This document shows positions 29,696-44,039 of a stretch of DNA of 64,000 nt, in pieces. Origin of the DNA: an uncultured Lachnospiraceae bacterium (lineage in GTDB: Bacteria > Bacillota > Clostridia > Lachnospirales > Lachnospiraceae); assembly GCA_902777355.1 (NCBI GenBank), contig CACYTU010000004.1, positions 19,910 to 83,909 on the forward strand, given 5' to 3'. How positions within the stretch are numbered: position 1 is the stretch's first letter; each line of letters begins with the position of its first letter. The translations under genes and the position numbers were made by a program. The notes beneath the pieces are model-generated. The model did no database searches. It was not told the origin of the DNA and saw only the letters and a list, made by a program, of their open reading frames with translations.

Positions 29696-31078
29696 TTATT
29701 TCTTCATCGCGTCCAGAGCTTCCTGGATGGTCTTCTGAAGTTCTTCTTTCGAAGGGATGATAGAACGCCATTTCAGCTCGCCGTTCAGATACATGGAAGG
29801 AAGGTTGGGAACACCCATCTTGATGCAGCGTGCGACGTTTTCCTTGTAGATGTATTTGTACTCGACCACGTCGATCTGATCGCCGAACATTTCGATGGCC
29901 TGGTTGGCGGCGCCCATCATGTAGCCGCAGGCTGCGCACTGGGCGGAATCCAGTGTGAAGACTTCCAGGAAAGGCTTCTCCAGGTGCTCGTAATCGGGAA
30001 GCACGACACCGGAGGTATCGATTTCCTCTGCCTGATAGTTTTTGACCATCTCGCGGACAGCATCTGTCTCAAGCGCTGCCTGTGCGATGCCGATGCAGTT
30101 CTCGATCGGGACTTTGTAGGGCATGTCACAGCCGGGAGCGATGATGAAATTGGTCTTGTCCGGAATGCTGTCGAGAAGTTCCACTGCGAACTTCATGTTG
30201 TCCTGCTGATTGCCGAGCAGCATGATGGAGGTCAGCGGAATATTTCCGCCGATCGCGATGTTGTACTCGTCAGTAATCTTCTTGGCTGCCAGGATATCGA
30301 CGTTCTCATCGACAGAAATGGAATCGGGGCCGGTCTGGCACATGACATCAATATTTCTGGTAGCGTCGCCGCATACAAAGAAGGAAGAGAAAGCACCCTT
30401 CTCGCGGATGAACGCGAAGATGTCCTTATAGGGTTCCATGCAATAGGTCTCGAAATCATCCGAAGAGATCTGGGAGATCAGCGGATCGACCATGGCGATG
30501 ACGTCCATGCCGGCTTCGATGTAGTACTCGGCAACCTTATTGCAGACGCGGGCGCAGAAGGCCATCAGATCGCAGACTTCATCCTCAAAGTCATACATAT
30601 CTGTGAAGAGCTGGTTTCCGCGCAGGTGAGAAGCCAGTGTGAAAGGACCGCAGATCAGGCCGTACAGGGCGGTCGTATCTCCGACGGCTTCTTTCATGCG
30701 CTTCATAACTTCCAGAACATAAGGGATACGGCCGGATTCCTTTGTGGGAATCTTGCAGTCGCAGGGAGTTACGGGGGGCTCATCCTCGTCCTCGGTCTCC
30801 AGCGGGTGGGCAGATACGGAAGGCGGGCAGTCGTCCGCCCATCTCAGCTCGCAGCCAAGGCACTCGGCCTCGATCTGCAGATCAAAGATCACGGGCTGTC
30901 CATCCGGACGATACAGGCGGTTGACTTCCATCAGGGACTCGAATGCCGCATCTGCATTTGTAAGCATCTCAGTCGCAGTGTAGCCTTTCAGAAAGCCGGC
31001 ATGCACGCCTGCAAAAGGCACCCACGGAGCACGCTCGACCGGCTCATGTTTCAGACAACGGATCAACAGATCTTTCAT
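29696..31078 (-). CDS. UroD/MtaA-family protein fused to a thioredoxin-like domain
   Basis: Residues about 1-365 belong to the uroporphyrinogen-decarboxylase superfamily that includes the MtaA/MtbA methylcobamide methyltransferases (CLKHEPVERAPWVPFAG, MVDPLISQISSDDFE, FFVCGDATRNID, APGCDMPY). Residues about 375-460 are a thioredoxin-like domain with a CAAC pair (SAQCAACGYM) and a cis-Pro-like GVPNLPSMYLNG. The zinc His-x-Cys of MtaA appears as Val-x-Cys here, so the metal site may differ. I start it at 31078 (MKDLLIRC), preceded by AAGGAGGT, not 13 codons upstream. Likely role: methyl transfer with a thiol-redox partner domain. It follows the other UroD-type gene in the same direction after a 304-bp gap. 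Confidence 0.8.
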   Translation of the reverse strand: MKDLLIRCLKHEPVERAPWVPFAGVHAGFLKGYTATEMLTNADAAFESLMEVNRLYRPDGQPVIFDLQIEAECLGCELRWADDCPPSVSAHPLETEDEDEPPVTPCDCKIPTKESGRIPYVLEVMKRMKEAVGDTTALYGLICGPFTLASHLRGNQLFTDMYDFEDEVCDLMAFCARVCNKVAEYYIEAGMDVIAMVDPLISQISSDDFETYCMEPYKDIFAFIREKGAFSSFFVCGDATRNIDVMCQTGPDSISVDENVDILAAKKITDEYNIAIGGNIPLTSIMLLGNQQDNMKFAVELLDSIPDKTNFIIAPGCDMPYKVPIENCIGIAQAALETDAVREMVKNYQAEEIDTSGVVLPDYEHLEKPFLEVFTLDSAQCAACGYMMGAANQAIEMFGDQIDVVEYKYIYKENVARCIKMGVPNLPSMYLNGELKWRSIIPSKEELQKTIQEALDAMKK

Positions 31079-31299
31079 CTTTACCTCCTTACGCAAATCC
31101 ATTACTGCTGCATCATTTTATTATACTTTTGGCTATGGTCTCGCATTCACAGCGATCTCATTACATGCCGGATAAAATACAAAAAATTTTCATCTGACGC
31201 AGAATGTGATTTCTGTTTTTAACATTATAGGCGAAATCCACCCATTCTTTTTAGAATAAAAATTTATTTTTTTAGTAATTTCTTTGCGCATTTGCCTGG

Positions 31300-31385
31300 T
31301 GCTCACGTCCTGCCGTCCGCTCCGTCTTCCTCCGTCTTCTGCTCCGTCTGCTCACCTGCCCGTCCGCTCACCTGCCGTCTGCTCA
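31300..31385. repeat. Degenerate GC-rich repeat after the UroD-type stop codon
   Basis: On the minus strand short units such as GCAGGTGAGC and AGACGGAG alternate several times directly after the stop at 31383. The rest of the 304-bp gap 31079-31382 holds a possible minus -10 (TATAAT near 31118) and an AGTAATTTCTTTGCGC stretch resembling the recurring upstream element. Confidence 0.6.
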
Positions 31386-32426
31386 TTTTTTATAAGCGCC
31401 GTAGGTTTTGGCGATCTCCACCATACGCCTGGCATGAGGGAAGGCATCGGGAGAGATCAGTTCGCAGCCGGTCGCCAGTATAAAACCGCCGCCCTTTGCC
31501 ATGGCATCAATGCTGGCCTTGCACTCTGCTTCGAGCTTCTCGGGTGTTCCGACGGTCGCGGTCGTAGGCGCGACACAGCCGATCAGGGTCGTCACATCGC
31601 CGTATTTCTCCTTGCACTCGGCAAAATCGGCACAGTCATCCGGCGGATAAAGGAAGGAGATGGCTTCGGGATGCATGCGATTGATCTGTGCGTCAAAATA
31701 AATCTTGCCGCCGCAGTTGTGGATCATGACCATGGCGCCTTTGGAATGCACATGCTCGGCAAGTTCCTGTACCAGATCTCCTTCGAGTTCGTCCCACATG
31801 TCCTTGCTCATAATACTGCCGGACGCAAACAGAGTGTCAAACATGATGCCCTGCACGCCGGTCTCCAGAAGCGCGTCGCAATACTCTTTGAGCACCTGAG
31901 TAATGATACCGGCCGTGTCATGTACGACCTCGGGCTGTTCAATGCAGTCCACATACATCTCCGCCTGGTTGCGGAGCATGGAAAGTGTTCCGAGAGGTCC
32001 GAAGACAAAGGCTATCACAGGATATTCTCCCTTGGCGGCCTCCACCAGCTGCCTGCAGACATCGATATGCATCATCATGCGGTCACAGGTGCGGTAGTCG
32101 ACATACTGGATCTTGTCGTACTCATCTTCATCGCTGATGACCTGATTTTTATAATTGGGATGAGCCGCCTCATGATCAGGGAAGACCAGCTCCTGGCCCC
32201 AGGCCGTACATTCGACAGACAGATCGATCAGTGTCACAATGCAGTCCAGATCAAATTCCTCTTTGGCTTTTAAAAGACCCTTCACACAGGTGTCGGCGTC
32301 TGTCGACCACTCGCGGCAGTTCGCTCCGATCAGATGTCTGGATACGCCTGCCAGCAGAGGATATGCCGGTACATGGTCAGGTTCCTGATGGTTTAAAGCC
32401 ATGACAACTCTTTCCATTGAATTCAT
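31383..32426 (-). CDS. UroD/MtaA-family methyltransferase
   Basis: The 347-residue product is a single-domain member of the uroporphyrinogen-decarboxylase superfamily: MERVVMALNHQEPDHVPAYP, ECTAWGQEL, FVFGPLGTLSML. Zinc-type ligands are visible: MIHNCGGKI (His-x-Cys) and LIGCVAPT (second Cys about 60 residues later), the spacing seen in MtaA/MtbA-type methyltransferases that pass methyl between a corrinoid and a thiol. A haem-pathway UroD is less likely because of these Cys. The start at 32426 has AAGGAGG upstream. It has its own promoter with a palindromic operator (32537) next to the padR gene. Substrate unknown. Confidence 0.8.
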   Translation of the reverse strand: MNSMERVVMALNHQEPDHVPAYPLLAGVSRHLIGANCREWSTDADTCVKGLLKAKEEFDLDCIVTLIDLSVECTAWGQELVFPDHEAAHPNYKNQVISDEDEYDKIQYVDYRTCDRMMMHIDVCRQLVEAAKGEYPVIAFVFGPLGTLSMLRNQAEMYVDCIEQPEVVHDTAGIITQVLKEYCDALLETGVQGIMFDTLFASGSIMSKDMWDELEGDLVQELAEHVHSKGAMVMIHNCGGKIYFDAQINRMHPEAISFLYPPDDCADFAECKEKYGDVTTLIGCVAPTTATVGTPEKLEAECKASIDAMAKGGGFILATGCELISPDAFPHARRMVEIAKTYGAYKK

Positions 32427-32536
32427 CGTATATCCTCCTTGGTACATCAATTGAAAAAGTATTTGTCTTTTCCTTCTCTATTGTTTCAGAGGACCTCCCG
32501 ACCTCCGGATGTCAGAATGTTCTCTTCACATGCAGG

Positions 32537-32557
32537 ATAGTAGACTATATCTACTAT
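32537..32557. promoter_or_regulatory. Palindromic operator overlapping the UroD-type promoter
   Basis: ATAGTAGA and TCTACTAT are perfect 8-bp arms separated by 5 nt (ctata). The site lies immediately downstream of the minus-strand -10 (TATTAT/TTATAC region 32562-32569), whose -35 TGGACA is at 32584-32589. A matching palindrome with the same 5-nt gap is at 40833. The adjacent PadR gene is the obvious candidate regulator. Confidence 0.7.
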
Positions 32558-32679
32558 GTGTATAATAATAAAAAGCTATGCCCTGTCCAGTATTTGATAA
32601 GCTGTTGTCACGTCCCTTCAGGGGATCAACAGCTGTTTTACTGGCTCCCGGAAGTTGGTACCGGGGCAGCCCGCACGGT

Positions 32680-33072
32680 TCACAGCTTCTGAAAAATCTC
32701 AGTAACTCCCGCTGTCTCTTCCATACTGCTGACCAGATCCGCAATAGACGCTGCATAGCTGCGCAGCGTCACCTGCCAGTTTCCCAGACAGGCTTTTCCC
32801 TTTTCCGTGATGGAATACACTCTCCTGGAAACATCCTTGTCCTGCGCGTTTTCCAGCCTGGAAGTCAGATATCCCGAGGCCTCCATCTTCTTCAGATAAC
32901 GGTAGACACCGGTCTTATCCGGCTCGATGCCTCCGAACATGGGATTTTTGCCCAGATCCCGAATGATCAGCCAGCCGTATTTGTCCTGCCGGTACAAGCT
33001 CATCAGGATACCGGGCTGCAGCATCTTGTCCAGATTTTTCCCTTTGCAGGGACAGTCCATTTCAAAATACAT
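32680..33072 (-). CDS. PadR-family transcriptional regulator with a Cys-rich N-terminus
   Basis: This 130-residue winged-helix protein is of the PadR type: MLQPGILMSLYRQDKYGWLI, then a recognition region GVYRYLKKMEASGYLTSR and the wing RRVYSITEKGKACL, ending in a C-terminal helix. The N-terminus has an unusual DCPCKGK pair that might bind metal or sense thiols. I start it at 33072 (MYFEMDC) because AGAGGAG precedes it. It lies between the CobW-type and UroD-type genes, in the same direction, and probably controls the palindromes at 32537 and 40833. Confidence 0.82.
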   Translation of the reverse strand: MYFEMDCPCKGKNLDKMLQPGILMSLYRQDKYGWLIIRDLGKNPMFGGIEPDKTGVYRYLKKMEASGYLTSRLENAQDKDVSRRVYSITEKGKACLGNWQVTLRSYAASIADLVSSMEETAGVTEIFQKL

Positions 33073-33097
33073 TGGATGATCTCCTCTATCCTGCTTC

Positions 33098-34036
33098 TCA
33101 GCCAAGTGTGATCTCTCCGATCTCATCGGGGTACCAGGCAGCAGCTTCGCGCACACGTTTTCTCACAGGCATTCCGGATCCGGACAAAACGGTGAGAAGA
33201 CCTTGCAGGTGTACAGGCACCGGTCTTTCCCAGGCCGACACAGACACGACATTGCCGGTACAGCTGACCAGCATCATCCCCTCTTTCGTCTGTACAAATC
33301 CCTTCACACGAAAGGTTGTCTCCGAGAACATTTCAATAAATTTCCGCAGCTGATATACAGTAATCTGCGGATTGACGCGGACTGACAGCCGCATCGTTGT
33401 TATGTCCGCGATCAGCGGCATCTCCCGGTCACCGCCGTCTGCTGTTTTCTGAAGACTGCAAAGGAGATCCGGAAGGCTGCTGTCCACCTGTCCGAACGAT
33501 GTCTCCAGGACCGGCATGTCGGGGCGATGTCCCCTGATCAGTTCCCTGGTACTCTCCAGCTGTTCAGGCGAAGCCAGGTCCGTCTTGTTGATCAGGGCAA
33601 TATCCGAAGCGGAAACCTGCCGCAGGCATGCGCGTGATTTGGCGTAAACTTTCGGAAAACGCACCGCATCCACCAGGCATACCGCACCGGCGTATTCTAT
33701 GTCGGGAAAGCGGCTTTGATCCGCGAAGAGCCGTCGTACACCCGTGGGGTCCGAGAGTCCGGAGGCTTCCACCAGGACTACGTCGGTATCCGGTTCCACA
33801 AAGGTCGTCAGCGCCTGCTCAAACTGGTCGAGCCGGCAGGAGCAGAAGACAGACCCTCCGGTAATCTCCTCCATCCCTATGCCGAGTTCCTCCAGCAGCA
33901 TGCCGTCGATTCCCTCCCTGCCGAACTCGTTGATGATCAGCTGCATTTTTTCTCCCGGGAAAAGCCTTATGAAGTTTTTCAGAAAAGTGCTCTTCCCGGA
34001 TCCCAGAAATCCGGTGATCAGATACAGTCTGCTCAT
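33098..34036 (-). CDS. CobW/P47K-family (G3E) GTPase
   Basis: The 312-residue product has the G3E P-loop ITGFLGSGKST, a switch region GGSVFCSCRLDQ corresponding to the family's Cys motif, DVVLVEASGLSDP (Walker B and Glu) and INKTDLAS (base recognition). The C-terminal domain is the CobW-C type. Such proteins deliver metals or, in methyltransferase clusters, help cofactor loading. I start it at 34036 (MSRLYLITG); a TTG five codons upstream is possible. It overlaps nothing and lies 25 nt from padR, consistent with one transcript. Confidence 0.82.
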   Translation of the reverse strand: MSRLYLITGFLGSGKSTFLKNFIRLFPGEKMQLIINEFGREGIDGMLLEELGIGMEEITGGSVFCSCRLDQFEQALTTFVEPDTDVVLVEASGLSDPTGVRRLFADQSRFPDIEYAGAVCLVDAVRFPKVYAKSRACLRQVSASDIALINKTDLASPEQLESTRELIRGHRPDMPVLETSFGQVDSSLPDLLCSLQKTADGGDREMPLIADITTMRLSVRVNPQITVYQLRKFIEMFSETTFRVKGFVQTKEGMMLVSCTGNVVSVSAWERPVPVHLQGLLTVLSGSGMPVRKRVREAAAWYPDEIGEITLG

Positions 34037-34152
34037 GATCTCATCCGCCAAAGCTGCTGATAGCAGGTAAAGCTTTTTTTCCGCTGCTTCAAATCTTAAT
34101 GTAAAGTATAATTTTTACCAATTTGGGTTTATCGAAAAAACATCTCATGTTT

Positions 34153-34169
34153 TTGTAATTATTTTGCAT
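34153..34169 (-). promoter_or_regulatory. Copy of the ATGCAAAATAATTACA element before the CobW-type gene
   Basis: On the minus strand ATGCAAAATAATTACAA sits at the 3' end of the lipoate-ligase gene and 117 nt before the GTPase start. It matches the elements at 29536 and 40887. A TATAAT-like box is not well placed, so an internal promoter is possible but uncertain; part of the sequence is coding (stop codon of the ligase). Confidence 0.35.
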
Positions 34170-35010
34170 CCATCAATATATCGGTACTTTCAGAGATGAT
34201 TGCCCCCATGACGGTCTCCATTTTCAGGTCGGGATAGCGGTCGCACAGATTGGTCACACGGCTCCTTACAGAGGCGATTCTGTGGCGCGCGAGCTTGGCC
34301 GGAGAAGCATTCAGGACTGCCGCCATCCGGTCCAGATCCACATCAAACATGAGCGTCGCATGGAACAAAAAGAACCCTTCCGGAGTCTCCCGGGAAGCCG
34401 AACCGGAAAATTTTCCTCCTTCTCCGAAAGGCTCTTCCGTCCTGAAATCCCCTTCCTCTTTGACGGATCCAGAGGTTTTCATCCCGGAAATCCCCGGTCC
34501 GGCATCCTTGAGTACAAGGTCGTTTCTTCCTGTTTTACAGGCGTCAACTCCGCATTTTACAAGGGCTTTCAGCAATATTTCCTGACAAATCGCTTCATCG
34601 AGGCTGTCCGCATACGCTATAAAGGAGACGTTCAGATTGCCCGGATCCTGGAAGACCGCGCCCCCGCCGGTGCGGCGTCTGACGATCCGGATTCCCATCT
34701 TCTCCGCGGCATCCAGGCGGCACTCCGCCTCAGCATCCTGGTGTCGTCCGATCACGACACAGTCCTCATTCCGCCAGAAAAGCAGGCAGAGCACACCCCG
34801 CTCTGCCTGCCCTGTAAGCTCCTCCTCGATGGACAGATTCTCCTCTGCATCTCTGCTGTCACTTTGCAGAACCCGGATTCCGCAAAAGCGTCCTGCTCTG
34901 TCTTCACAAGAACTGTTTCCATACTCAGAGATTTGTTCCGAATACCCAAAAAGACCCGTTTTCTCCCGAAAACAAATCTGCCGGACACCTTTTGGTAATT
35001 TCTTTGGCAC
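34159..35010 (-). CDS. lplA: Lipoate-protein ligase (LplA/LipM-like), dedicated to the adjacent carrier
   Basis: This 283-residue ligase attaches lipoyl (or octanoyl) groups to a lysine of a carrier domain. Landmarks are CVVIGRHQDAE, RRRTGGGAVFQDPGNLNVSF (the family's GGG motif), GRNDLVL, KFSGSA and GFFLFHATLMFDVDL. There is a 25-residue insert (about 190-215) between GRNDLVL and the KFSGSA strand. The start is GTG at 35010: it lies one nucleotide after the carrier gene's stop codon and has AGGAG 6 nt upstream, and there is no in-frame ATG before the core. The accessory C-terminal domain of E. coli LplA is absent. The pairing with the lipoyl carrier suggests co-function. Confidence 0.85.
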   Translation of the reverse strand: MPKKLPKGVRQICFREKTGLFGYSEQISEYGNSSCEDRAGRFCGIRVLQSDSRDAEENLSIEEELTGQAERGVLCLLFWRNEDCVVIGRHQDAEAECRLDAAEKMGIRIVRRRTGGGAVFQDPGNLNVSFIAYADSLDEAICQEILLKALVKCGVDACKTGRNDLVLKDAGPGISGMKTSGSVKEEGDFRTEEPFGEGGKFSGSASRETPEGFFLFHATLMFDVDLDRMAAVLNASPAKLARHRIASVRSRVTNLCDRYPDLKMETVMGAIISESTDILMDAK

Positions 35011-35011: not shown

Positions 35012-35305
35012 TTATTCTCCTGTTTCGATATATCCAAGAACGTCTCCGTAGGTAAATTCCTCCCCGTCTTCAATGCAGATTTCCGCAAACTGCCCGCTAC
35101 AGGGCGCACGAAATTCGAAGGTCTTTTTTTCTATCTCTCCTTCGCAGATCACCTGGTCCTGCTCCACAGAGTCTCCCGGTCTGACCAGCCAGAAGATCTC
35201 TCCTGTCTTGTGGCGGATATGATACTCCCTGTTCTGGCACTCGCAGGGGTGCTCCGGATCCTTTTTGGGTCTTGCCTTGGGGGGCACTAATATTTCCACT
35301 CTCAT
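35012..35305 (-). CDS. Free-standing lipoyl-carrier (biotinyl/lipoyl-attachment) protein
   Basis: The 97-residue product is a single lipoyl-type domain: WLVRPGDSVEQDQVICEGEI leads to the hairpin turn with EIEKKT, where Lys60 (or Lys61) sits at the usual lipoylation position, then APCSGQFAEICIEDGEEF and GDVLGYIETGE. A 20-residue N-terminal extension (PPKARPKKDPEHPCEC) carries Cys21 and Cys23. The ribosome site GGAGGAG is well placed. It is immediately followed by a lipoate ligase gene and preceded by a DUF5714 gene and a lipoamide-dehydrogenase-like gene, so it is probably a swinging-arm redox or methyl/acyl carrier for this locus and not part of a 2-oxoacid complex, since no E1/E2 genes are present. 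Confidence 0.82.
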   Translation of the reverse strand: MRVEILVPPKARPKKDPEHPCECQNREYHIRHKTGEIFWLVRPGDSVEQDQVICEGEIEKKTFEFRAPCSGQFAEICIEDGEEFTYGDVLGYIETGE

Positions 35306-35478: not shown

Positions 35479-36081
35479 TCAGTCCTTGTCATTCAGGGGA
35501 TAGTAGGGACATTCCCCATGCCGGCATTCTTTGTTCTTTTCGTAATATTTACAGACCACACGGGGGCTGTTCTGCAGATGCAGACCGAGCTTTTCATTGA
35601 TATAGGGAACCGATTCGGAGACAGACAGATAGGCTGTGCGCTTGCAGCATCTGGGCCCCTCCACCGACGCGATCTTCTGCAGACAGAGCCCTGTCAGTTC
35701 ATTGCACCACTGCCAGGTCTTTCCGGAAACCGGCGTTGTCTGAGTCCAGACACTCATAAAAATACCCGCCCCGACACCTGCTCCGCATGCGCCGAAGTTT
35801 CCGCAGACTCCTCCGGGAACCTGCAAGGAACGGGTTTTGGCTGTGTCGAGCATTTCCTCCAGCGCCTCGCGGGGCTCCGACTGTTCCATGGCGGCCAGTG
35901 TCAGGAGCGCCGCAGGCATGATGAAATGATGATAGGGATAGTGGATGGGAACCTCGGGATGATCCATCATCTTTTCGAGCAGTTCTTCAACCGTCAGCTT
36001 TTGCCCTGCATCATAGACGCCCAGGCAGATCTGCTGCAGATCCGCTAAAACAGAATCCTTCAAAATAATCTGATGTACCAT
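35479..36081 (-). CDS. DUF5714-type Cys-rich protein
   Basis: The 200-residue product has the pattern GGVCGNFGACGAGVGAGIF followed by TTPVSGKTWQWCN, GPRCCKRTAYL and a C-terminal CKYYEKNKECRHGECPYYP. This is what I recall of DUF5714 proteins, which occur near corrinoid methyltransferases and anaerobic C1 genes; their biochemistry is not established. The eight or more Cys suggest metal or Fe-S binding. I start it at 36081 (MVHQII) because GGGAGGAAT precedes it. It lies between the flavoprotein and the lipoyl carrier in the same operon. Confidence 0.7.
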   Translation of the reverse strand: MVHQIILKDSVLADLQQICLGVYDAGQKLTVEELLEKMMDHPEVPIHYPYHHFIMPAALLTLAAMEQSEPREALEEMLDTAKTRSLQVPGGVCGNFGACGAGVGAGIFMSVWTQTTPVSGKTWQWCNELTGLCLQKIASVEGPRCCKRTAYLSVSESVPYINEKLGLHLQNSPRVVCKYYEKNKECRHGECPYYPLNDKD

Positions 36082-36221: not shown

Positions 36222-37868
36222 TCATCTCCGTCGTTTGACGGGAAGCTCAGGAGAGCCGCCGCAGGCATCCTCCACTGCCATTCGCACAAGCTCGCTCAGA
36301 GAAGGATGGGCGAAGACCTGCCTGCAAATCTGACTGCAGGGAATCCGGTAGAGGATATAGGACTGCAGCAGATGGATCATTTCCTCTGCTTCAGGTGCGA
36401 TGACACAGGCCCCCAGAAGAAGATCGGTCTTTGTGTCGCGCCATACTGTCACTGAACCGTCTGTATATTGCCTGATTCGTGCTGCTCCGGATGCATAAAC
36501 AGGCGCCTTGCCGGTTCTGATAATAAACCCCCGGGCACGGATTTCTTCGATCGACATGCCCACACAGGCTGCCGGAGGGTCGATATGAAGACATGCGGGC
36601 GCGCACATCCTCTCCCATCCCCGAGAGATATCCGCCTCCGGGTGAGTTTTCCAGCCCATATCGGGAAAGAGCTGAATGCTTTCACCGGTGTCCATATCCT
36701 TCTGCAGGATCACTTCTGCCGCCTGTTCCGCCTGCCATGTCCCATAATAAGCTGTCTTCTCCTGTCCGTTTGCATCCCCGATGCAAAAAACGTGCGGATT
36801 TGCAGTTCTTCCGCAGGCATCCGCCCGGATATAACCGTCCTGTGTCAGATGAAGGCCGAGAGCGTGGGCTTTTCTGGCAGGAAACACAGGTCTTCGCCCC
36901 ACGGCAGTCAAAACAGCCGTCCTGACCTCTTTCTCCGGCATATGTCCTGCTTCCCTTTGTACAGGGTCCGGCTCCTGCAGGCCGCCTTGGGGATCCTCTT
37001 GTTTTTCCCGCTTTTCCCGGCAGGGCGGCATGCTTTTCAGGACCTCATCCAGCCAGGCATCGTACGACCGGCAATTCTCCCGTATCCTGACCCCGTGCCT
37101 CTCCAGGATTCTCCGGACAGCCCTTCGCGGTTCTCTGCTCCAGGATGCCAGGATCTGCTCTCCCGCCTCGCAGAGTTCTACGGCCGGCACAAAAGCGGAC
37201 ATGGCATCCGCTATCTCGCATCCTGCTGTCCCGCCGCCAATCACGATCAATCTGTCCGGAAGAGTTTTCATCTCTCTCAAAGTGTCCGTTGTATAAAAGC
37301 CGACCGAGGGGTTCTTTTTTGCCGAAAGCAGAACAGACTCCGGAACCATGGGGGCTGATCCGGGCGCCAGAACAATGTCCCTTGCGGAATATTTTTCTCC
37401 GCCCGTCTCAATTTGCAGCCCTTCCGGGCCTCTCTCCGGAAAAATCTCTTCTCCTTCCAGAAGGCGGACGCGCCGGGACATCTGCACCAGCCGGATCCCT
37501 TCTGTCATCTCTTTTGCGGTCTGCGCGGTCTCTTGCAGAAAGTCTTCCCAGGCAGCCTGCCTTATATCATCCTTCAGGTGCCGGTTTTCCCGATTTGCAG
37601 GGGATCCGTTGTTTTTCATGTTCCCTGAATCGGGGCATTGTGGGGAGAGCTGACTGCCCGCAGGCTCCTCTCTGAGCCTCCGGCGCAGCCCGGCCGCCGC
37701 CAGGGAAAGTTTTTTTGTCGGAATGCAGCCGGTTCTGAGGCAGGTCCCGCCCGGAGACACGCAGTCGGCCAGGGCAGTCCGTTTTCCGTTTTCAGCAAGG
37801 ACAGCGGCTGCCCGGCACCCTGCAGGTCCTGCGCCGATCACGATCACATCATAGCGTCTGTCCTCCAT
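36222..37868 (-). CDS. Lipoamide-dehydrogenase-like flavoprotein (pyridine nucleotide-disulfide oxidoreductase)
   Basis: The 548-residue product has the FAD site VIVIGAGPAGCRAAAV, the redox disulfide GGTCLRTGCIPTKK, the NAD(P) site IVIGGGTAGCEIA, the second FAD site VFCIGDANG and a C-terminal dimer domain ending FAHPSLSE, the His-Glu pair used by dihydrolipoamide dehydrogenases. It is about 80 residues longer than a typical Lpd owing to low-complexity inserts near residues 70-110 and 295-325. It should oxidise or reduce a dithiol such as the adjacent lipoyl carrier. The start at 37868 has AAAGGAG and follows the ABC permease stop by 11 nt, so the operon includes the importer. Mercuric or glutathione reductase roles are less likely by context. 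Confidence 0.85.
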   Translation of the reverse strand: MEDRRYDVIVIGAGPAGCRAAAVLAENGKRTALADCVSPGGTCLRTGCIPTKKLSLAAAGLRRRLREEPAGSQLSPQCPDSGNMKNNGSPANRENRHLKDDIRQAAWEDFLQETAQTAKEMTEGIRLVQMSRRVRLLEGEEIFPERGPEGLQIETGGEKYSARDIVLAPGSAPMVPESVLLSAKKNPSVGFYTTDTLREMKTLPDRLIVIGGGTAGCEIADAMSAFVPAVELCEAGEQILASWSREPRRAVRRILERHGVRIRENCRSYDAWLDEVLKSMPPCREKREKQEDPQGGLQEPDPVQREAGHMPEKEVRTAVLTAVGRRPVFPARKAHALGLHLTQDGYIRADACGRTANPHVFCIGDANGQEKTAYYGTWQAEQAAEVILQKDMDTGESIQLFPDMGWKTHPEADISRGWERMCAPACLHIDPPAACVGMSIEEIRARGFIIRTGKAPVYASGAARIRQYTDGSVTVWRDTKTDLLLGACVIAPEAEEMIHLLQSYILYRIPCSQICRQVFAHPSLSELVRMAVEDACGGSPELPVKRRR

Positions 37869-37879
37869 CTGCGTCTCCT

Positions 37880-38788
37880 TTACATCTCCCAGACAATCAG
37901 TTTTTTCTGTAAAACATCGATACATTTGTTAAGAGCCGTCACGACAGTCCCCACTACTATAATCCCTGCGACAACCTTTGTGTAGTTGCCGTATGTATTA
38001 TAGTTTACTATATAATACCCCATTCCGCTTGTCGCGCCCATCATCTCAGCAAAAGTCAGCAGCATGATTCCTGTCGTGAAAGTAACCTTCAGACTTCCGA
38101 CCACCCCTGCAAACGCATAGGGAAAGAGGATCTCCAGGATCATGGAGGTATTGCTCAGATTCATGGCGCGCGCACTGTCCATGATCCCCTTGTCCATGCC
38201 GTCAATGCGGACGATCATTCCCAGGAAAGTCGGCCAGAAGATTCCCAGGATCAGGACCACTGCGGAGGCACTTCGAAAGGTCGGCATCAGGGCCACAACA
38301 TAAGGGGCAAAAACAGTGGACGGAATCGGGGCAAGTACGCCGGCGATCGGATGAAAAAGGTCCCGAAGGCGCCGGATCCATCCGCAGATCAGGCCGGCTG
38401 CCATTCCCGCCGCCAGTCCCGCGATCATGCTGCTCAAAAACAGCCTGAGAGAAGAAAAAACACCCGTCGCGATCACTCTGCGGTCATCCGCAAAAACCTG
38501 AAAGACATTCTCCGGCGCAGGGACAAGAACCGGGTGCATAAGGGCCAGTTTTGTCACTGCGCACTCCCAGACTATGAGAAATCCCCACAAAACGACCATC
38601 AGGTCGGACGCTGCGCGCAGCTGCTCTCTGTTCCGGGTGACCCGGATCAGGTACAGGATTTCCATAAGGGCGATCGCAGCCAACATGGCAAAAGGAGGCT
38701 GCACCTCTTTTTTTCCGGGCAGCCGGATCAATATGCAGAGAACGATGAGAAGAATGTGACTGAGTATGCTTGTACGTTTACGATTCAT
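37880..38788 (-). CDS. ABC transporter permease (SsuC/TauC/nitrate type)
   Basis: The 302-residue product has about six to seven membrane segments and the binding-protein-dependent transport signature near residues 200-220 (KGIMDSARAMNLSNTSMILEI is the EAA-loop region). It belongs to the family of permeases for sulfonates, nitrate or pyrimidine precursors. I start it at 38788 (MNRKRTS), 8 nt after GGAG, overlapping the ATPase gene by 11 bp, a sign of translational coupling. The imported compound is unknown; the downstream lipoyl and methyltransferase genes suggest a methylated or sulfur-containing small molecule (inference). Confidence 0.82.
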   Translation of the reverse strand: MNRKRTSILSHILLIVLCILIRLPGKKEVQPPFAMLAAIALMEILYLIRVTRNREQLRAASDLMVVLWGFLIVWECAVTKLALMHPVLVPAPENVFQVFADDRRVIATGVFSSLRLFLSSMIAGLAAGMAAGLICGWIRRLRDLFHPIAGVLAPIPSTVFAPYVVALMPTFRSASAVVLILGIFWPTFLGMIVRIDGMDKGIMDSARAMNLSNTSMILEILFPYAFAGVVGSLKVTFTTGIMLLTFAEMMGATSGMGYYIVNYNTYGNYTKVVAGIIVVGTVVTALNKCIDVLQKKLIVWEM

Positions 38789-39521
38789 GGAACCACTCCT
38801 CCAAAGACGCTCGAAGCTCTCTGCAGTCTGAATACCCCTTGGACCCGGCACAGCATTCACTGATCCTTTCAGATATTTCCATTTCCCGCTCAATCGCTCC
38901 GTTTCTCATAAACACGATCCTGGTCCCCATAGCCAGCGCCTCATCGAGGTCATGTGTGACGAAAATCACGGTCTTCTTCTCCTCCTTCCAGAGTTTCCGC
39001 AGAAGCTTCTGCAGGTCCGCACGGATCGCGGGATCCAGCGCACCGAAGGGCTCGTCCAGAAGAAGCACCTCCGCGCCCGAAGCCAGTGCTCTGGCTATGG
39101 CCGTGCGCTGCCTCATACCGCCGGAAAGCTGATAGGGGTATTTGTCCTGCGCATTCTCCATCCCGGTTTTCCCGAGAAAAAGATCCGCCCGCCGCTCCAT
39201 CTCCTCTTTCCCGAAACGGCGGCTCTTTTTCATTGCAAACAGGACATTTCCCCGCACCGTCTGCCAGGGAAAAAGGGAATACTGCTGAAACACCACCGCG
39301 CGGTCCATGCCCGGCACATTCATATTGCGGCCATCCCTTGTGATAGAGCCCGACTGCAGAGGAAGAAGACCCGCCAGCAGATGGATCAGGGTGCTCTTTC
39401 CGCAGCCCGAGTGCCCCAGAACACACACAAATTCTCCATCCTGTACAGTGAGGGAGAGATCACGGATCACCGTCTCTTTGCTGTTTTCGTAAGTATATTG
39501 AAGATTTTTAATTTCAATCAC
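38778..39521 (-). CDS. ABC transporter ATP-binding protein (SsuB/TauB type)
   Basis: The ATPase of about 247 residues has Walker A GHSGCGKST, the Q-loop FQQYSLFPWQTV, signature LSGGMRQRTAIARALA, Walker B VLLLDEPFGALD and the H-loop FVTHDLDEALAMG. The order and sequence are typical of sulfonate/nitrate/taurine importers. I prefer the GTG at 39521 (MIEIKNLQYTYE) because AGGGGAAGG precedes it and the family starts there; an ATG at 39569 is possible. It lies between the binding-protein gene and the permease gene. Confidence 0.87.
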   Translation of the reverse strand: MIEIKNLQYTYENSKETVIRDLSLTVQDGEFVCVLGHSGCGKSTLIHLLAGLLPLQSGSITRDGRNMNVPGMDRAVVFQQYSLFPWQTVRGNVLFAMKKSRRFGKEEMERRADLFLGKTGMENAQDKYPYQLSGGMRQRTAIARALASGAEVLLLDEPFGALDPAIRADLQKLLRKLWKEEKKTVIFVTHDLDEALAMGTRIVFMRNGAIEREMEISERISECCAGSKGYSDCRELRASLEEWFHES

Positions 39522-39585: not shown

Positions 39586-40785
39586 TCAATTGGTCTCTTT
39601 CGCCTCCTGCATGAGATCCTGCCAGAGAGTATTGTCCGCCTCGCGGTCCGCCAGGGTCTGCAGCGCGGTCTCATAAACAGTGGTGTCGACGTGGTCTGCC
39701 ATATCGACAGGGGTATTTGCGTCAATATCACCGTTCAGCTTCATGGTCTCATAGAAATCCAAAACTTTCTTTTTGTTGGGGTTGAGAGAGACGATCATGG
39801 CATTTCTGTATGTGTCCGTTCCGTACATGACCGCCTCTGTGTAGGCCGCGTCCTGCCCTGAATAGGCCGACAGCACTTCGATGGTCTTTGCATGGTCGTT
39901 CAAATAGATCTCATAGGCACGCAGCGCAGCAATCTCAAACTTCACAAGGGCATCCTTCTTTTCCGCAAGGGTCTTTCCGGAAGTCGACTGGCGGCAGCAG
40001 GGGAAGCCTTCCACAAAATCGCCTGCGTGAAATGCCACCTTCAGGCCGTTTCCCTCCGCAACATAACCGAACCCGCTGTTGACAAAGCCCAGATCAACCT
40101 CTCCTTTTTTTACGGCTTCTGCGATGGATGCCTGAGAATCCAGATAAACATACTGGACATCCACATCGGGCTCCAGCCCGTGCTCACGCAGGTATCCCTT
40201 CATGACCATATGTCCGGTCTCCATGCGGAAGCACCCGATCTTTTTGCCGCGGAAATCCTCCGCTTCTTTGTAAAGGTCCGCATTCTCGGGAAGGGTCACA
40301 CACTCGCTGCCCTCTGAAATCGTTCCGCCGAACACACACACATCCGCGCCCTGGGAGGCGAAGCTCAGCGTGGGGATGGCCCCGTAGGGAAGGACATCCA
40401 GCTTGCCCTCACTGACAGCCGTGATTCCCTCCGCAAGATTGGAGACCTTCTCAAACTGCACATCGACACCCTCTTCTTCAAACAGCCCCAGCTCCTTTGC
40501 CATGATGACGCAGGCTGTCTTCATATCCTGCCCCAGCATACCCACTTTGAGAGTTTCCATCTCTTCTGCAGGCACCTGCGCAGAAACACTTTCCGATGCG
40601 GTTTCCGAAGCAGCTTCTGTTCCGGCAGCCCCGGTATTTTCCGCCTCCTGCCCGGCCTGCTGATCAGCCCCGGCAGCTTCCTGGCCTGCACTGTCCGCTG
40701 CCGATGAACCTCCTCCGCACCCGGACAGAAGAACTGCCCCCGTGATCATTCCTGCCAGTACTGCCGCGACCCATCTCTTCTTCAT
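39586..40785 (-). CDS. ABC transporter substrate-binding lipoprotein (NMT1/SsuA-like)
   Basis: The 399-residue product begins with a lipoprotein signal MKKRWVAAVLAG...LLSGC and an Ala/Gly/Glu-rich spacer, then the binding-protein fold: LKVGMLGQDMKTACVIMAKELG, VDVQFEKV, GKLDVLPYGAIPTLSFASQGADV, GKKIGCFRMETGHM, VDLGFVNSGFGYV. It resembles periplasmic-type proteins for nitrate, sulfonate or thiamine precursors. The ribosome site AAAGGAGG is strong. The gene starts the operon that runs through the importer to the lipoyl and methyltransferase genes; its promoter has a palindromic operator (40833) and a conserved upstream element (40887). Confidence 0.85.
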   Translation of the reverse strand: MKKRWVAAVLAGMITGAVLLSGCGGGSSAADSAGQEAAGADQQAGQEAENTGAAGTEAASETASESVSAQVPAEEMETLKVGMLGQDMKTACVIMAKELGLFEEEGVDVQFEKVSNLAEGITAVSEGKLDVLPYGAIPTLSFASQGADVCVFGGTISEGSECVTLPENADLYKEAEDFRGKKIGCFRMETGHMVMKGYLREHGLEPDVDVQYVYLDSQASIAEAVKKGEVDLGFVNSGFGYVAEGNGLKVAFHAGDFVEGFPCCRQSTSGKTLAEKKDALVKFEIAALRAYEIYLNDHAKTIEVLSAYSGQDAAYTEAVMYGTDTYRNAMIVSLNPNKKKVLDFYETMKLNGDIDANTPVDMADHVDTTVYETALQTLADREADNTLWQDLMQEAKETN

Positions 40786-40832: not shown

Positions 40833-40849
40833 AGTAGACCAAGTCTATT
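40833..40849. promoter_or_regulatory. Palindromic operator before the ABC importer operon
   Basis: AGTAGA and TCTATT are separated by 5 nt (ccaag), matching the arms and spacing of the palindrome at 32537 with one mismatch. It sits just downstream of the -10 at 40860-40865, where a bound repressor would block transcription. Confidence 0.65.
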
Positions 40850-40859
40850 ACTTGAGAAT

Positions 40860-40892
40860 ATCATACACCTTACCGAGCTCTTTTTTTTGTAA
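40860..40892 (-). promoter_or_regulatory. Promoter of the ABC importer operon with the AATTACA upstream element
   Basis: On the minus strand TATGAT (40860-40865) lies 21 nt from TTACAA (40887-40892), itself part of CCAAAATAATTACAA. The arrangement resembles the promoters at 7937 and 29510. Confidence 0.5.
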
Positions 40893-40979
40893 TTATTTTG
40901 GAATTAAGGAAAAAGCGGATTATTTCCGGGCAGATGGGACACTTGTGACTCAATAAAATGGACATAGCCGGTATCAAAA

Positions 40980-41040
40980 AGGGAACTCCCGGCAGGGACA
41001 CCGGATTTTTCCTGTTCGGTATCCCCGCCGGGAGTTTTCA
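40980..41040 (-). terminator. Rho-independent terminator after the DUF2284 gene
   Basis: AACTCCCGGC and GCCGGGAGTT pair, with a second inner stem (ACCG/CGGT). On the minus strand it is followed by CCCTTTTTG. It sits 11 nt after the DUF2284 stop and separates that unit from the importer operon. Confidence 0.8.
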
Positions 41041-41050
41041 TCTTTTTACA

Positions 41051-41593
41051 TCATTTAAACAGCACACAGCCTGTAAAGGTAACGGTATTTCTGCCGTAAT
41101 AATAGGGCGTATCCGCGCTTTTGCATACGTCCGTGACCAGCAGTCCGTAGGCTTCCATTGAAGTAAATGCCCTGTCGGGAAAGCGGCAGGGCGCATCCGG
41201 ATAGGTGCAGCTCGCACACTGCTGTCCGCATCCTCCGCTTCCCATGGGCAGAAAAGCTTCCTCCCCCATTTCGCGCAGGCGGCCGACATATTTCAGGAAG
41301 CGGTCGCGCTGTGTCACCTGGGCTTCTTCGATCGCTTCTCCGTCGAATTCATCCTCCATCTGGGCAGTAGTCTGCAGAACGATTCCCCATTTAAACTGCT
41401 TCGCCTTTTTCCTGCTGTCTGCAAGGGTTCCGCAGGCAGGCGGACATGTCCAGAGCCTTCCGTAGTTGCCGCATTTGTTGGCCTTGCACATATCGCGGAC
41501 TTCCTTGAGAAAGTTCAAGTCCTTTGTTTCAAAAATGCCTCTGCCTTTAAATCCAATCTCCTCCGCCAAAGCGGCGGCTGTCTCTTTGGTCAT
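41051..41593 (-). CDS. DUF2284-type Cys-rich metal-binding protein
   Basis: The 180-residue product has the pattern MCKANKCGNYGRLWTCPPACG, then GGCGQQCASCTYPDAPCRFP and a C-terminal CVLFK, that is, four Cys-based clusters as in DUF2284 proteins. These proteins are found beside corrinoid methyltransferase and B12-reactivator genes and probably bind Fe-S or other metal; the function is not established. The start at 41593 is the only ATG in frame with a nearby GAGG site. It follows the RACo-type gene with a gap of about 107 nt and is closed by a terminator at 40980. Confidence 0.75.
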   Translation of the reverse strand: MTKETAAALAEEIGFKGRGIFETKDLNFLKEVRDMCKANKCGNYGRLWTCPPACGTLADSRKKAKQFKWGIVLQTTAQMEDEFDGEAIEEAQVTQRDRFLKYVGRLREMGEEAFLPMGSGGCGQQCASCTYPDAPCRFPDRAFTSMEAYGLLVTDVCKSADTPYYYGRNTVTFTGCVLFK

Positions 41594-41700
41594 ATTTGTG
41601 ATGAACCTCCTCTGTAAAGTTGCTCTGTCCGTGCGGAAGATTGATCCTTCCTGATCACGCCCAAAACCTCTCGAATTTCATGGTAGTCTGAAAACAGCAA

Positions 41701-43191
41701 TCAATCCTGTTCCGGGAAAAATATATTGTCCATGTAGAGATCGCTGAAGAGAGGGTTCTCCGCGAGAGCCGTCTCCTCCGCGTTCTCTCCAACAGCGCGC
41801 ATGCGCTCCAGAACAGAAGGATCGCAGGCTGCCATCACGGCGCCGGCAAGGGAACTGTTGCCCACAGGAACCATCCTGTCCAGCAGTTCCTCCGGAAGCA
41901 GGCCGATCCCGACCGCCTTTTCCAGATTGATCTTCTGGCCGAAGCCTCCGGCAATATAGAGCTTTCCGATCTGATCATAGTCTGCTCCGTACTCTTCCAG
42001 CAGGACCTCCAGTCCCGCGCGCACGGCGGACTTGGCCAGCTGTACCTCACGGACATCCTTGTTGGTAAACACAATTCCTTCCGCGACAGGGAATCCGTCG
42101 TCAAAATATTTATCATCCAGAAGGCCGGTCTCATCGACCAGCTCCTCCTTCAGGAGCTCGTAGACAGTCTCCAAAACACCCGTCCCGCAAAGACCGACAG
42201 GAGGCAGATTCCCGATCGTCTGCACCCTTGCATTGCCGTCAGTGATCTCCACGCTGCTGACCGCGCCCGGGATGCCCGCAACGCCGCAGCTGATATTGCC
42301 GCCCTCAAAAGCGGGGCCGGCCGCCGTGGACGCCGATATGATGCGGTCACGGTTTCCGATCGCCATCTCGCCGTTGGTACCAAGGTCAACGAGGATACAG
42401 ATCTCCTCGCTCTGATCGATCCCGCATGCCACGATGCCGCTCACAATATCCGCGCCGACAAAGGTACTGATCCCCGGAAGAATCGTCATGTTTTCATATT
42501 CATGCAGGGAGATATCGACCGGCGTGTAGGGGGCAGCTCCCAGAGTCTTGCAGGAAAGTCCCTGCAGCAGGTGTTCCATGGTTGAATTTCCGCTGATCAC
42601 CATCCGGGTATCCTGCGCCAGTCCCAGTTTTTCCCGCAGCAGATCCAGATCAGCGCGAATGCTCTTCTGCAACAGGCCGCCCTTACCCTGATTGGAAGCC
42701 TCCATCCTGCTGATGACATCGGCTCCCCAGCTTCTCTGGTGATTAATGCCCGTGGAAGTCCCCAGAATCCGTCCGCTGCCGATTTCCACAGCGGACATTG
42801 CGATGGTTGTCGTACCGATATCGACAGCCGCCGTTATGGTTCCGCCTTCCTCAGGTTCTTTCTGTCCCGGGATCCTGCCGGGGGCTCCATTCAGCACAAA
42901 GCCGGACGCAACGTCCATCTGTTTCTCGTCCCCTGCTTCGATTTCAATGACAGCGCCCTTCACGGCTGCAGTCCTGCAGGCAAGGCGCACGCCTGCCGCA
43001 ATCTCCGCTTCTGTCAGAACTTTGCGGTCTGCCTGCGATGGTGCGGGCGGATCCTGGACAAAGCGGACCCGGCACTTACCGCAGGTACCGTTCCCGCCGC
43101 AGGGAGCCAGGATATATTCCCCTTGTGCCTGCAGTGCCTGCAAAATACTTGTGCCCTCTACTGTGTTCTCTATCCGGATCCTGTGTCCCAC
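41701..43191 (-). CDS. RACo/RamA-type corrinoid reactivator (2Fe-2S plus ASKHA, DUF4445)
   Basis: The 496-residue product restores Co(I) in corrinoid methyl carriers using ATP and low-potential electrons. Residues 1-90 are a ferredoxin-like domain with Cys31, Cys37, Cys40 and Cys72 (PCGGNGTCGKCRV, LACRTA). The rest is the ASKHA domain: AVDIGTTTIAMSAV, SGNSTMEHLLQGLS, ILVDLGTNGEMAIG, TGVLETVYELL and YIAGGFGQKINLEKAVGIGLLP. I start it at GTG 43191 because GAGGAGG lies 8 nt upstream and the family begins there; an ATG 18 codons upstream lacks a site. It follows the corrinoid protein gene after a hairpin at 43305. Confidence 0.9.
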   Translation of the reverse strand: MGHRIRIENTVEGTSILQALQAQGEYILAPCGGNGTCGKCRVRFVQDPPAPSQADRKVLTEAEIAAGVRLACRTAAVKGAVIEIEAGDEKQMDVASGFVLNGAPGRIPGQKEPEEGGTITAAVDIGTTTIAMSAVEIGSGRILGTSTGINHQRSWGADVISRMEASNQGKGGLLQKSIRADLDLLREKLGLAQDTRMVISGNSTMEHLLQGLSCKTLGAAPYTPVDISLHEYENMTILPGISTFVGADIVSGIVACGIDQSEEICILVDLGTNGEMAIGNRDRIISASTAAGPAFEGGNISCGVAGIPGAVSSVEITDGNARVQTIGNLPPVGLCGTGVLETVYELLKEELVDETGLLDDKYFDDGFPVAEGIVFTNKDVREVQLAKSAVRAGLEVLLEEYGADYDQIGKLYIAGGFGQKINLEKAVGIGLLPEELLDRMVPVGNSSLAGAVMAACDPSVLERMRAVGENAEETALAENPLFSDLYMDNIFFPEQD

Positions 43192-43304
43192 TCTTTTTTC
43201 CTCCTCGGGCAGATTATACCTTGCGCGGTCGTGTGATAAGATCACACAGCTATTTTACAGGTGTTGCTTATTTACTGCACCTGATATTTCCTTTTTTTAC
43301 AAAT

Positions 43305-43333
43305 CATGCCCCCGCTTGATCTGCGGGGGCATG
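43305..43333 (-). terminator. Hairpin between the corrinoid protein and RACo-type genes
   Basis: CATGCCCCCGC and GCGGGGGCATG form a perfect 11-bp stem with a 7-nt loop. On the minus strand it is followed by ATTTGTAAAAAAA, so the T-run is weak. It may partially terminate and set the ratio of corrinoid protein to reactivator. Confidence 0.65.
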
Positions 43334-43400
43334 TATTTCTCCTTACAATAGCGCCCTGGGGCGCAGGCTCTGCTTCAAGCCGCACAAATCACCCTGAAAA

Positions 43401-44039
43401 TCAGGCGCTGACAAACTCAAGCGCTTTTTCCGCCGCGCTGGGAGCATCCTCTGTGTAGGCATCAGCGCCGATGCTTTCCGCAAACTCCTGGGTGACGGGA
43501 GCACCGCCGACCATGATCTTGACCTTGTCGCGGATTCCGGCTTCCTCGGCCGCTTTGATGACTTCGCCCATCATAGGCATTGTGGTCGTGAGCAGGGCAG
43601 ACATTCCGATGATGTCAGCGTTTTCGTCGATTGCCGCCTGGATAAATTTTTCCGGGGCCACGTCGACGCCAAGATCGACGACCTCGAAACCCTTGCCCTC
43701 AAACATCATGATGACCAGATTCTTGCCGATATCATGCAGGTCGCCCTGGACTGTGCCCATGACGATCTTGCCCTTGCCGGTCGCGCTGTCATCGGAAAGA
43801 TAGGGTTTGAGCACCTCGGAACCGGCCTTCATGGCTCGCGCCGATACCAGAACCTGAGGCACGAAAATCTCATTTGCCTTGAACTTTGCTCCGACGACAT
43901 CCATGCCCGCGAGAAGTCCTTTGGTCAGAATATCATTGGGGGCCAGTCCCTCATCGATTGCCTGCTGACAGAGTTTCTTTACGTCTTTTCTTTTGCCTTT
44001 CTGTAACATCTCGGAAATCTGTTCAAGCACTTCACTCAT
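43401..44039 (-). CDS. Corrinoid (B12-binding) methyl-carrier protein
   Basis: The 212-residue product has the two-domain layout of MtaC/MtbC/MtvC-type carriers: an N-terminal helical cap (residues 1-85, ILTKGLLAGMDVVGAKFKANEIFVPQ) and a Rossmann-type B12 domain with the cobalt-ligand motif GDLHDIGKN (His102 of DxHxxG), then DLGVDVAPEKF, GMSALLTTTMPMM and GGAPVT. It accepts methyl from a substrate-specific methyltransferase and hands it on. The ribosome site AAAGGAG is strong. A minus -10 (TATAAT, 44137-44142) lies upstream. The likely partners are the UroD-type genes in this region and the RACo-type reactivator just downstream. Confidence 0.93.
   Translation of the reverse strand: MSEVLEQISEMLQKGKRKDVKKLCQQAIDEGLAPNDILTKGLLAGMDVVGAKFKANEIFVPQVLVSARAMKAGSEVLKPYLSDDSATGKGKIVMGTVQGDLHDIGKNLVIMMFEGKGFEVVDLGVDVAPEKFIQAAIDENADIIGMSALLTTTMPMMGEVIKAAEEAGIRDKVKIMVGGAPVTQEFAESIGADAYTEDAPSAAEKALEFVSA

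Follow-up and report, generated by a model that had tools for sequence, protein, structure and literature searches.

The nearest precedent for a free lipoyl carrier with a dedicated lipoate ligase is LbpA of Hdr-like sulfur oxidation, as described in PMC6067878. Here we analyse another such carrier, encoded in a 64,000-nucleotide stretch of DNA from an uncultured Lachnospiraceae bacterium (contig CACYTU010000004.1; the whole stretch is called the window below), where it lies among genes for corrinoid-dependent methyl transfer. Judged by gene neighbourhoods, two modules meet at this locus: a corrinoid methyl-transfer module, marked by a UroD protein fused to a thioredoxin-like domain (UroD-Trx) and a CobW-type GTPase, and a module of a DUF5714 protein, the carrier and its ligase. 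DUF5714 is the point at which they meet. LbpA has in common with the window carrier a free single lipoyl domain outside the dehydrogenases, its own ligase and an extra conserved cysteine, and for LbpA too a hand-over of electrons to NAD has been proposed (PMC6067878). The window ligase is likewise a dedicated one, as judged by gene linkage. LbpA, however, is GcvH-like and linked to hdr genes, whereas the window carrier is E2-like, bears a CxC in its N-terminal part, and has its linkage to DUF5714 and to corrinoid genes. No hdr-like genes were found among the 19 window proteins scanned.

On the methyl-transfer side, the type 1 mlp clusters also combine UroD proteins related to coenzyme M methyltransferases with a corrinoid protein and a reactivator (Ram/RACE there, RACo here), in anaerobes, and no folate methyltransferase occurs in the clusters detailed there (PMC10418091). 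The same paper argues that UroD proteins with a His-Cys-Cys metal site act on sulfur or selenium; for the acceptor in its clusters it suggests a thiol, sulfide being one example. Type 1 mlp clusters have at least two such proteins (Mlp2 and Mlp3), whereas by motif only one in the window, UroD 31383, has the full set. The hallmark UroD of the window, unlike theirs, lacks the histidine, is fused to thioredoxin, and is accompanied by CobW, DUF5714 and lipoyl parts. As judged by a word search, the main text of PMC10418091 mentions no lipoate, DUF5714 or PadR.

The methanogen MtmB/MtmC/MtbA methylamine pathway is a further point of comparison. In the MtmB clusters of Sporomusa ovata DSM 2662 (locus L070) and genome G110 (L104), UroD-Trx holds the place of MtbA, from which it differs in having an extra thioredoxin domain and in its association with CobW. 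Coenzyme M is not known to occur in these bacteria.

The families listed in PMC13188914 include MbdU, selenocysteine-assisted organometallic (SAO) proteins and related groups. The SAO operon described there has an ABC importer of the same broad family and cysteine-rich partners. It differs in that the Sao models score far under their cut-offs here (SaoX 28 bits against 300, SaoP 61 against 295, SaoA 220 against 360) and in that no selD was found, selenoproteins not having been searched for; an SAO system was rejected on these grounds. A literature search, with most subscription journals outside it, gave no description of DUF5714, of a pairing of lipoate with a corrinoid methyltransferase, or of a UroD-thioredoxin family linked to corrinoid and CobW. 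Sulfur oxidation already offers a precedent for a free lipoyl carrier that has a ligase to itself; this family and its partnership were not found described in that search.

The carrier, its ligase and DUF5714

The genes at the centre of the analysis are listed here, with positions in the window.

35012..35305, minus strand: free lipoyl carrier, 97 residues, with CxCQ (C21, C23, Q24), Lys60, C54 and C77 (Pfam Biotin_lipoyl 8.9e-12; alignment)
34159..35010, minus strand: lipoate-protein ligase, likely GTG start at 35010 (Pfam LplA-B_cat 1.3e-44)
35479..36081, minus strand: DUF5714 protein, likely ATG start at 36081 (Pfam DUF5714 1.1e-55)
36222..37868, minus strand: lipoamide-dehydrogenase-like (LPD-like) flavoprotein, likely ATG start at 37868, with CxxxxC and HPSLSE motifs (Pfam Pyr_redox_2 and dimerisation domain)
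29696..31078, minus strand: UroD/MtaA-like protein with a C-terminal fusion to a thioredoxin-like CAAC domain, UroD-Trx (Pfam URO-D 1.9e-53)
31383..32426, minus strand: second UroD protein, His-Cys-Cys metal site, HNCG ... TGCE (Pfam URO-D 2.1e-50)
33098..34051, minus strand: CobW-type GTPase, start approximate (Pfam cobW)

An initial annotation of 29696 to 44039, made from the sequence alone, had named these and several further genes. All of them are present, on the minus strand, and Pfam and NCBIfam confirm their families; neighbouring open reading frames in this range either overlap or are separated by gaps of up to 280 bases. The start of the ligase, placed one nucleotide after the stop of the carrier, is plausible: there is a GTG at 35010 with an upstream AGGAG, which matches a Shine-Dalgarno sequence. 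Lys60 was rightly taken as the lipoyl lysine, and C21, C23, Q24, C54, K60 and C77 are all invariant in seven aligned carriers. The statement that E2 and glycine-cleavage genes are absent stands for lipoyl domains in the source assembly, which is 84% complete; E1, P- and T-proteins were not searched for. The other Biotin_lipoyl matches in the assembly, named by inspection, are a pyruvate carboxylase, an oxaloacetate-decarboxylase-type biotin carrier and an RND-type membrane-fusion protein, and a GCV_H search of the assembly found no GcvH, only the same biotin carrier at 22.5 bits, and not the 35012 carrier. Compared with the PDB, the carrier profile matched E2 lipoyl domains best (E 2.3e-12), with biotin carriers at E 0.0017 and weaker. 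The E2 chains of solved structures align from about residue 29 onward, and the CxC part is extra to them. Because of these matches the 97-residue carrier is, as predicted from sequence, the only plausible lipoylation target found in the assembly, where its ligase is the sole LplA found.

Nine carriers were collected. Eight are from the phylum set of the window, in genomes G000 (the window), G055 (L025/L027; 81% complete), G239 (L019), G350 (L020), G441 (L021), G438 (L022), G369 (L023) and G767 (L059), and the ninth is from S. ovata (L028), which belongs to the Negativicutes, another class of Bacillota. The searches gave carriers in two of 61 genomes of the genus, in six of 397 of the family (the window genome and one fusion among them) and in two of 398 of the phylum (again counting the window genome); a contig search added S. 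ovata and a record sharing the 13,717-base contig of G055. A second family draw, at a completeness of at least 97, gave no new carrier at E <= 1e-12 (3/396, all known). The carrier of G239, a different genus, is 59% identical to that of the window. The N-terminal CxC is present in 8/9 carriers, and so is the lipoyl lysine. Rows of the carrier search were dropped as other lipoyl or biotin domains for G017, G046, G172, G348, G368, G430, L029 and 24 of the 26 genomes of one search; one of the dropped rows, G738, aligned at 5-93, nearly full length. The 34 loci behind dropped rows (33 of about 3 kb, and L029 of 11 kb) served as controls, and none has CxC[QN] in the matching reading frame or a DUF5714 BLAST hit. 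As a separate observation, a 3-kb locus of G697 (L033) has an LplA-like gene together with an 89-residue open frame that contains a lipoyl domain. It has no DUF5714 and no CxC, and may be a further case of a free carrier that has a ligase to itself.

DUF5714 adjoins the carrier in eight of the nine loci and is fused to it in L023 (9069-10175), so that the two are linked in 9/9, compared to 0/34 control loci. The constant partner of the carrier is DUF5714, and not a methyltransferase. In nine aligned DUF5714 sequences the invariant residues are HxPxHH, CGxxGxCG, GPRCCKR and a C-C-C tail; the window protein has seven cysteines, including those of GPRCCKR and the C..C..C tail. Its predicted structure is all-helical (mean pLDDT 73.6, built on three sequences). 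A resemblance to phloretin hydrolase (phmmer E 0.061) was taken as chance. The L023 fusion has as neighbours a second DUF5714 gene and two TrsS-type radical SAM genes. Two fusions involving CobW were also seen from BLAST hits covering both parts, one of DUF5714 with CobW beside UroD-Trx and an importer (L103, 6780-8540), and one of PadR with CobW (L100, 5819-7261).

The initial annotation had suggested looking for co-occurrence of the carrier with the ligase, flavoprotein, DUF5714 and UroD genes. Among the nine carriers this is complete only for DUF5714. The ligase LplA is in the same stretch in 5/9 (window, G055, G239, G441, S. ovata), directly adjoining the carrier in the window and G055 and with one gene between in the other three; seven of the nine genomes have only one LplA. 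CobW is near four (window, G055, G239, G441), an NMT1-type importer near three (window, G055, S. ovata), PadR near three (window, G055, G767), and UroD-Trx is in the carrier locus in three (window, G055, G239). No UroD gene of any kind was found in the fetched stretch around six of the nine, two of these stretches being short (beyond the carrier the sequence runs on for only about 200 bases in L020 and 1.3 kb in L022), so the tie to methyltransferases does not hold as it was stated. Nor is the flavoprotein a regular partner, being near only four carriers (window, G055, G438, G369). It is closest to lipoamide dehydrogenase (227 bits, model cut-off 408.8), and its reading frame (36222-37925, minus strand) is about 90 residues longer than the L022 and L023 homologues, with charged stretches inserted. 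In L019 the carrier, ligase, DUF5714, CobW and UroD-Trx again form one cluster, together with a homologue of UroD 31383 (68%). The S. ovata order is LplA-DUF5714-carrier-binding protein-permease-ATPase, and its importer is distant from that of the window: the permeases are 21% and the ATPases 44% identical, and the binding proteins fall in one Pfam family. In G438, a further locus (L073, 30-5370) has in a row a TrsS-like pair, a DVU_1553-like ligase (both with BLAST hits to L023), a second DUF5714 and, next to it, the only LplA of that genome.

UroD-Trx and the corrinoid genes

UroD-Trx was examined at 22 loci (window, L025, L019, L065-L070 and L092-L104), several of which end at contig ends, so that the following counts are lower bounds. 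Its neighbours are CobW in 19 and a corrinoid protein, RACo or both in 14. PadR is near it at 7 loci, DUF5714 at 6 and an importer at 5, and MtmB and the carrier at 3 each. The loci without a close CobW are L065 (a 4-kb contig), L067 (a distant CobW only) and L069. PadR also occurs at L059, L093-L095 and L101. From these neighbourhoods DUF5714, PadR and the importer can apparently belong to the UroD-Trx/CobW system without any lipoyl carrier.

The two modules are statistically associated. The C-terminal profile of UroD-Trx matches 17 of 397 family genomes and carriers with the lysine are in 5/397, with an overlap of four (hypergeometric p 1.1e-5, or 3.3e-5 when the lysine-less G369 is included; kinship is uncorrected). 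The two family draws were taken as the same set, as their size and listed handles agree. In all, UroD-Trx is present in seven of the nine carrier genomes, in three of them at the same locus.

The C-terminal domain of the window UroD-Trx gives a weak match to Thioredoxin_3 (residues 386-459, 23.1 bits, cut-off 24.8). Aligned to PDB 4ay7, the histidine of the zinc site is replaced by phenylalanine (FVCG ... PGCD), and both cysteines are kept. The window protein shares the pattern F-x-CG[DN] ... [AS]PGCD ... LDSxxCxxC with 19/19 homologues listed (the L104 and L025 proteins are outside this list). By motif, UroD 31383 has the full His-Cys-Cys set, and the third UroD, 45772, has HxC without the second cysteine. 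The MtaA/CmuA model TIGR01463 gives 140 bits for UroD-Trx and 82 bits for UroD 31383, neither of which reaches the curated cut-off of 235. A thiol acceptor for the methyl group is plausible from the UroD family.

Three UroD-Trx loci carry MtmB. In S. ovata L070, UroD-Trx comes after genes for a corrinoid protein, for an MtmB that contains an in-frame TAG, for RACo and for pyrrolysine, and there is a second, shorter UroD. The MtmB of L104 is close (72-75%) and that of L066 distant (31-33%). The MtmB frames at L070:1493-2881 (TAG read) and L104:11960-13342 are each split by one codon, pyrrolysine-type, and stand with UroD-Trx and CobW. By inspection, the RACo protein at L104:13614-16226 has a UroD-like tail. 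A further protein family lies beside or near UroD-Trx at five loci (L092:4875-5894, L095:6878-7954, L096:7541-8581, L097:10881-11891, L098:7644-8654), and its L096 member resembles radical SAM enzymes of the biotin synthase/HydE type. Acetogenesis as the fate of the methyl group is not evident, and acetate not an evident end point, because acetyl-CoA synthase was not found in the window assembly or G055, which are 84% and 81% complete; it is present in 8/22 genomes (weak in G141).

The remaining genes of the locus are as follows.

32680..33072, minus strand: PadR-type regulator (Pfam PadR)
37880..38893, minus strand: ABC importer permease, TauC/SsuC/SaoP-like, start approximate (Pfam/NCBIfam)
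38778..39521, minus strand: ABC importer ATPase, start by Shine-Dalgarno scan (Pfam/NCBIfam)
39586..40785, minus strand: ABC importer binding protein, NMT1/SsuA family (Pfam/NCBIfam)
41051..41593, minus strand: DUF2284 metal-binding protein (Pfam/NCBIfam)
41701..43191, minus strand: RACo-type corrinoid reactivator, likely start at 43191 (Pfam/NCBIfam)
43401..44039, minus strand: corrinoid protein, MtgC/MtbC-like (Pfam/NCBIfam)
44209..45648, minus strand: PocR-domain AraC regulator, just beyond the range of the initial annotation (Pfam/NCBIfam)
45772..47031, minus strand: third UroD protein, likely a substrate:corrinoid methyltransferase, beyond the same range (Pfam/NCBIfam; 42% to the UroD of corrinoid cluster L067)
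17391..19433, plus strand: hydantoinase/oxoprolinase-like ASKHA protein, possible displaced member (56% to L100, 44% to L019, 39% to L095)

The last of these is probably a displaced member of the UroD-Trx system. Its homologues in L100, L019 and L095 are all close to UroD-Trx genes, and the L100 one adjoins the importer. Beside the corrinoid genes is a homologue of Thg1, the tRNAHis guanylyltransferase (48577-49332, minus strand, Pfam E 8.5e-31). Further genes, named by inspection, are a homocysteine S-methyltransferase-like gene (49588-50628, plus strand) about 2.5 kb from UroD 45772, followed by an alanine/glycine symporter-like gene (50808-52289, plus strand), and cobalamin-biosynthesis-like genes in the first 13 kb of the window. 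At 23587-26010 and 26299-28944 (minus strand) are an 807-residue protein with no Pfam match at E <= 0.001 and its neighbour, a long HSP70-like protein.

Possible roles of the lipoyl arm

Our preferred reading, which is a tentative one, is that the carrier, DUF5714 and the ligase, here together with the NAD(P)H-linked LPD-like reductase, form a dithiol redox relay that was recruited as an accessory to the corrinoid system. The SsuABC/NMT1-type importer would bring a substrate or thiol into the cell, and UroD 45772 would transfer a methyl group to the corrinoid protein 43401, which RACo would maintain in its active state. UroD-Trx, possibly with UroD 31383, would pass the methyl on to a soft acceptor, probably a thiol, with CobW supplying the metal. 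Lipoylation of Lys60 by the ligase is suggested by the sequence and by no other target having been found. The dihydrolipoyl arm, the CxC pair and DUF5714 may then keep CxxC and cysteine-metal enzymes reduced, or may pass electrons to or from NAD(H) via the flavoprotein. In genomes with UroD-Trx and no carrier, an ordinary thioredoxin could do the job of the relay.

Since 13 of the 17 family genomes with UroD-Trx have no carrier match, it takes fewer assumptions to give the arm an accessory redox role than to make it an obligatory methyl acceptor. The accessory role is also indicated by the conserved CxC, CxxC and cysteine-rich motifs and by the LPD-like gene at 4/9 loci; at two of these, L022 and L023, there is no UroD, as would suit a redox function that does not depend on methyl transfer. 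The initial annotation had the carrier serving the methyl-transfer pathway. The five-gene cluster recurring in L019 and the enrichment of UroD-Trx agree with this, and the link is looser than was supposed; its electron-relay alternative fits the evidence better than methyl acceptance by the arm.

Several results weigh against the relay. Besides the 13 genomes without a carrier match, two of the nine carrier genomes (G438, G369) have no UroD-Trx match, and the LPD-like gene is near none of the other five carriers. DUF5714 occurs with UroD-Trx in L093, L094 and L103 where there is no carrier, and therefore does not need the lipoyl arm; its fold gave 91 PDB matches at E <= 10 and none at E <= 0.001. 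The L059 carrier keeps the lysine and lacks the second cysteine of CxC, while the L023 fusion keeps CECQ and lacks the lysine. The ligase of the window genus, as seen in the window and G055, keeps its catalytic core intact, has an insertion and, in the alignment, no C-terminal accessory domain, and for this reason may not activate free lipoate alone; the domain is present in the LplA homologues of L019, L021, L028, L071 and L072, and the L073 frame also ends early. The predicted structure of UroD-Trx has a mean pLDDT of 33.8, so no geometry supports a link between its thioredoxin domain and the metal site. Lipoylation, electron flow and contact of the carrier with UroD-Trx are all predictions.

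Among the alternatives, one is that the arm carries sulfide or persulfide, as proposed for LbpA, and that methyl-corrinoid methylates this to give a methyl thiol. The closest precedent is indeed a sulfur-pathway carrier with its own ligases and an extra conserved cysteine (PMC6067878), the importer resembles sulfonate importers, and UroD S-methyltransferases use soft ligands (PMC10418091). We consider it unlikely, as no Hdr-like or sulfurtransferase gene was found among the window genes scanned, the carrier is E2-like and not GcvH-like, and the importer scores shown for NCBIfam models are all under the curated cut-offs.

About as unlikely is that the carrier, DUF5714 and ligase have a function of their own, with the methyltransferase genes mere neighbours. 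The six stretches without a UroD gene would be expected from this, as would L022 and L023, where the module is paired with HgdB-like proteins, in L023 with TrsS-type radical SAM genes and a DVU_1553-type ligase, and in L022 with a DVU_1556-like methyltransferase that is under its cut-off. It does not sit well with the clustering of the same five genes in the window genus and in G239, with DUF5714 accompanying UroD-Trx and CobW even where the carrier is lacking (as a fusion in L103), or with the association of carrier and UroD-Trx across genomes, uncorrected as this is for kinship.

Direct methyl acceptance by the lipoyl arm is less likely. The dihydrolipoyl arm would be a protein-borne substitute for coenzyme M, its thiol methylated from methyl-corrinoid by UroD-Trx or UroD 31383. 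These two are closest to coenzyme M methyltransferases of the MtaA/CmuA type (NCBIfam; PDB 4ay7), and UroD 31383 keeps the site that PMC10418091 ties to sulfur or selenium methyl transfer. There is no pterin-binding methyltransferase among the window genes scanned, and it fits too that no acetyl-CoA synthase was found in the window assembly or G055. The incomplete overlap of carrier and UroD-Trx genomes counts against it, as do the histidine ligand missing in all 20 UroD-Trx sequences listed and the lack of an evident gene to take the methyl off the arm. Its fullest form, in which non-methanogenic bacteria use the protein-bound arm instead of coenzyme M, the thioredoxin-fused, histidine-less MtaA relative methylates it, DUF5714 processes the methyl-lipoyl group and lipoamide dehydrogenase resets the disulfide, is more doubtful still.

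It is very unlikely that the compound handled at the locus is a methylated one of a metalloid, a metal or selenium, with the dithiol binding the metal. In favour of this, DUF5714 resembles MbdU (76 bits, cut-off 600), which NCBI names a 'metal-binding double selenoprotein', matches to the ABC models of the Sao type were obtained, far under cut-off, and PMC10418091 connects type 1 mlp clusters with methyl-selenium. No MerB- or ArsM-type family is among the window scan matches. The selenium route was rejected: selD was not found in the window assembly or G055, and is not clearly enriched with UroD-Trx, being over cut-off in 9/17 UroD-Trx family genomes compared to 18/58 others (p 0.15). Outside this count are G055 (none), G767 and S. 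ovata (selD and UroD-Trx), and G438 and G369 (selD, no UroD-Trx). Lastly, lipoyl carriers usually serve 2-oxoacid dehydrogenases or glycine cleavage, and the assembly is incomplete, yet an ordinary carrier of this kind with its other genes elsewhere is scarcely credible given the constant DUF5714 linkage, the 34 ordinary lipoyl/biotin loci with neither DUF5714 nor CxC, the CxC part extra to E2 chains, and an assembly in which no further lipoyl domain of the E2 or GcvH kind was found.

The carrier and DUF5714 are thus a recurring, uncharacterised pairing, probably a thiol-based redox helper. UroD-Trx with CobW is a recurring corrinoid-linked enzyme that occupies the MtbA position in bacterial methylamine clusters. 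S. ovata DSM 2662, a cultured acetogen, carries both halves in separate loci (the carrier in L028 and UroD-Trx in L070), and the question is therefore testable there.

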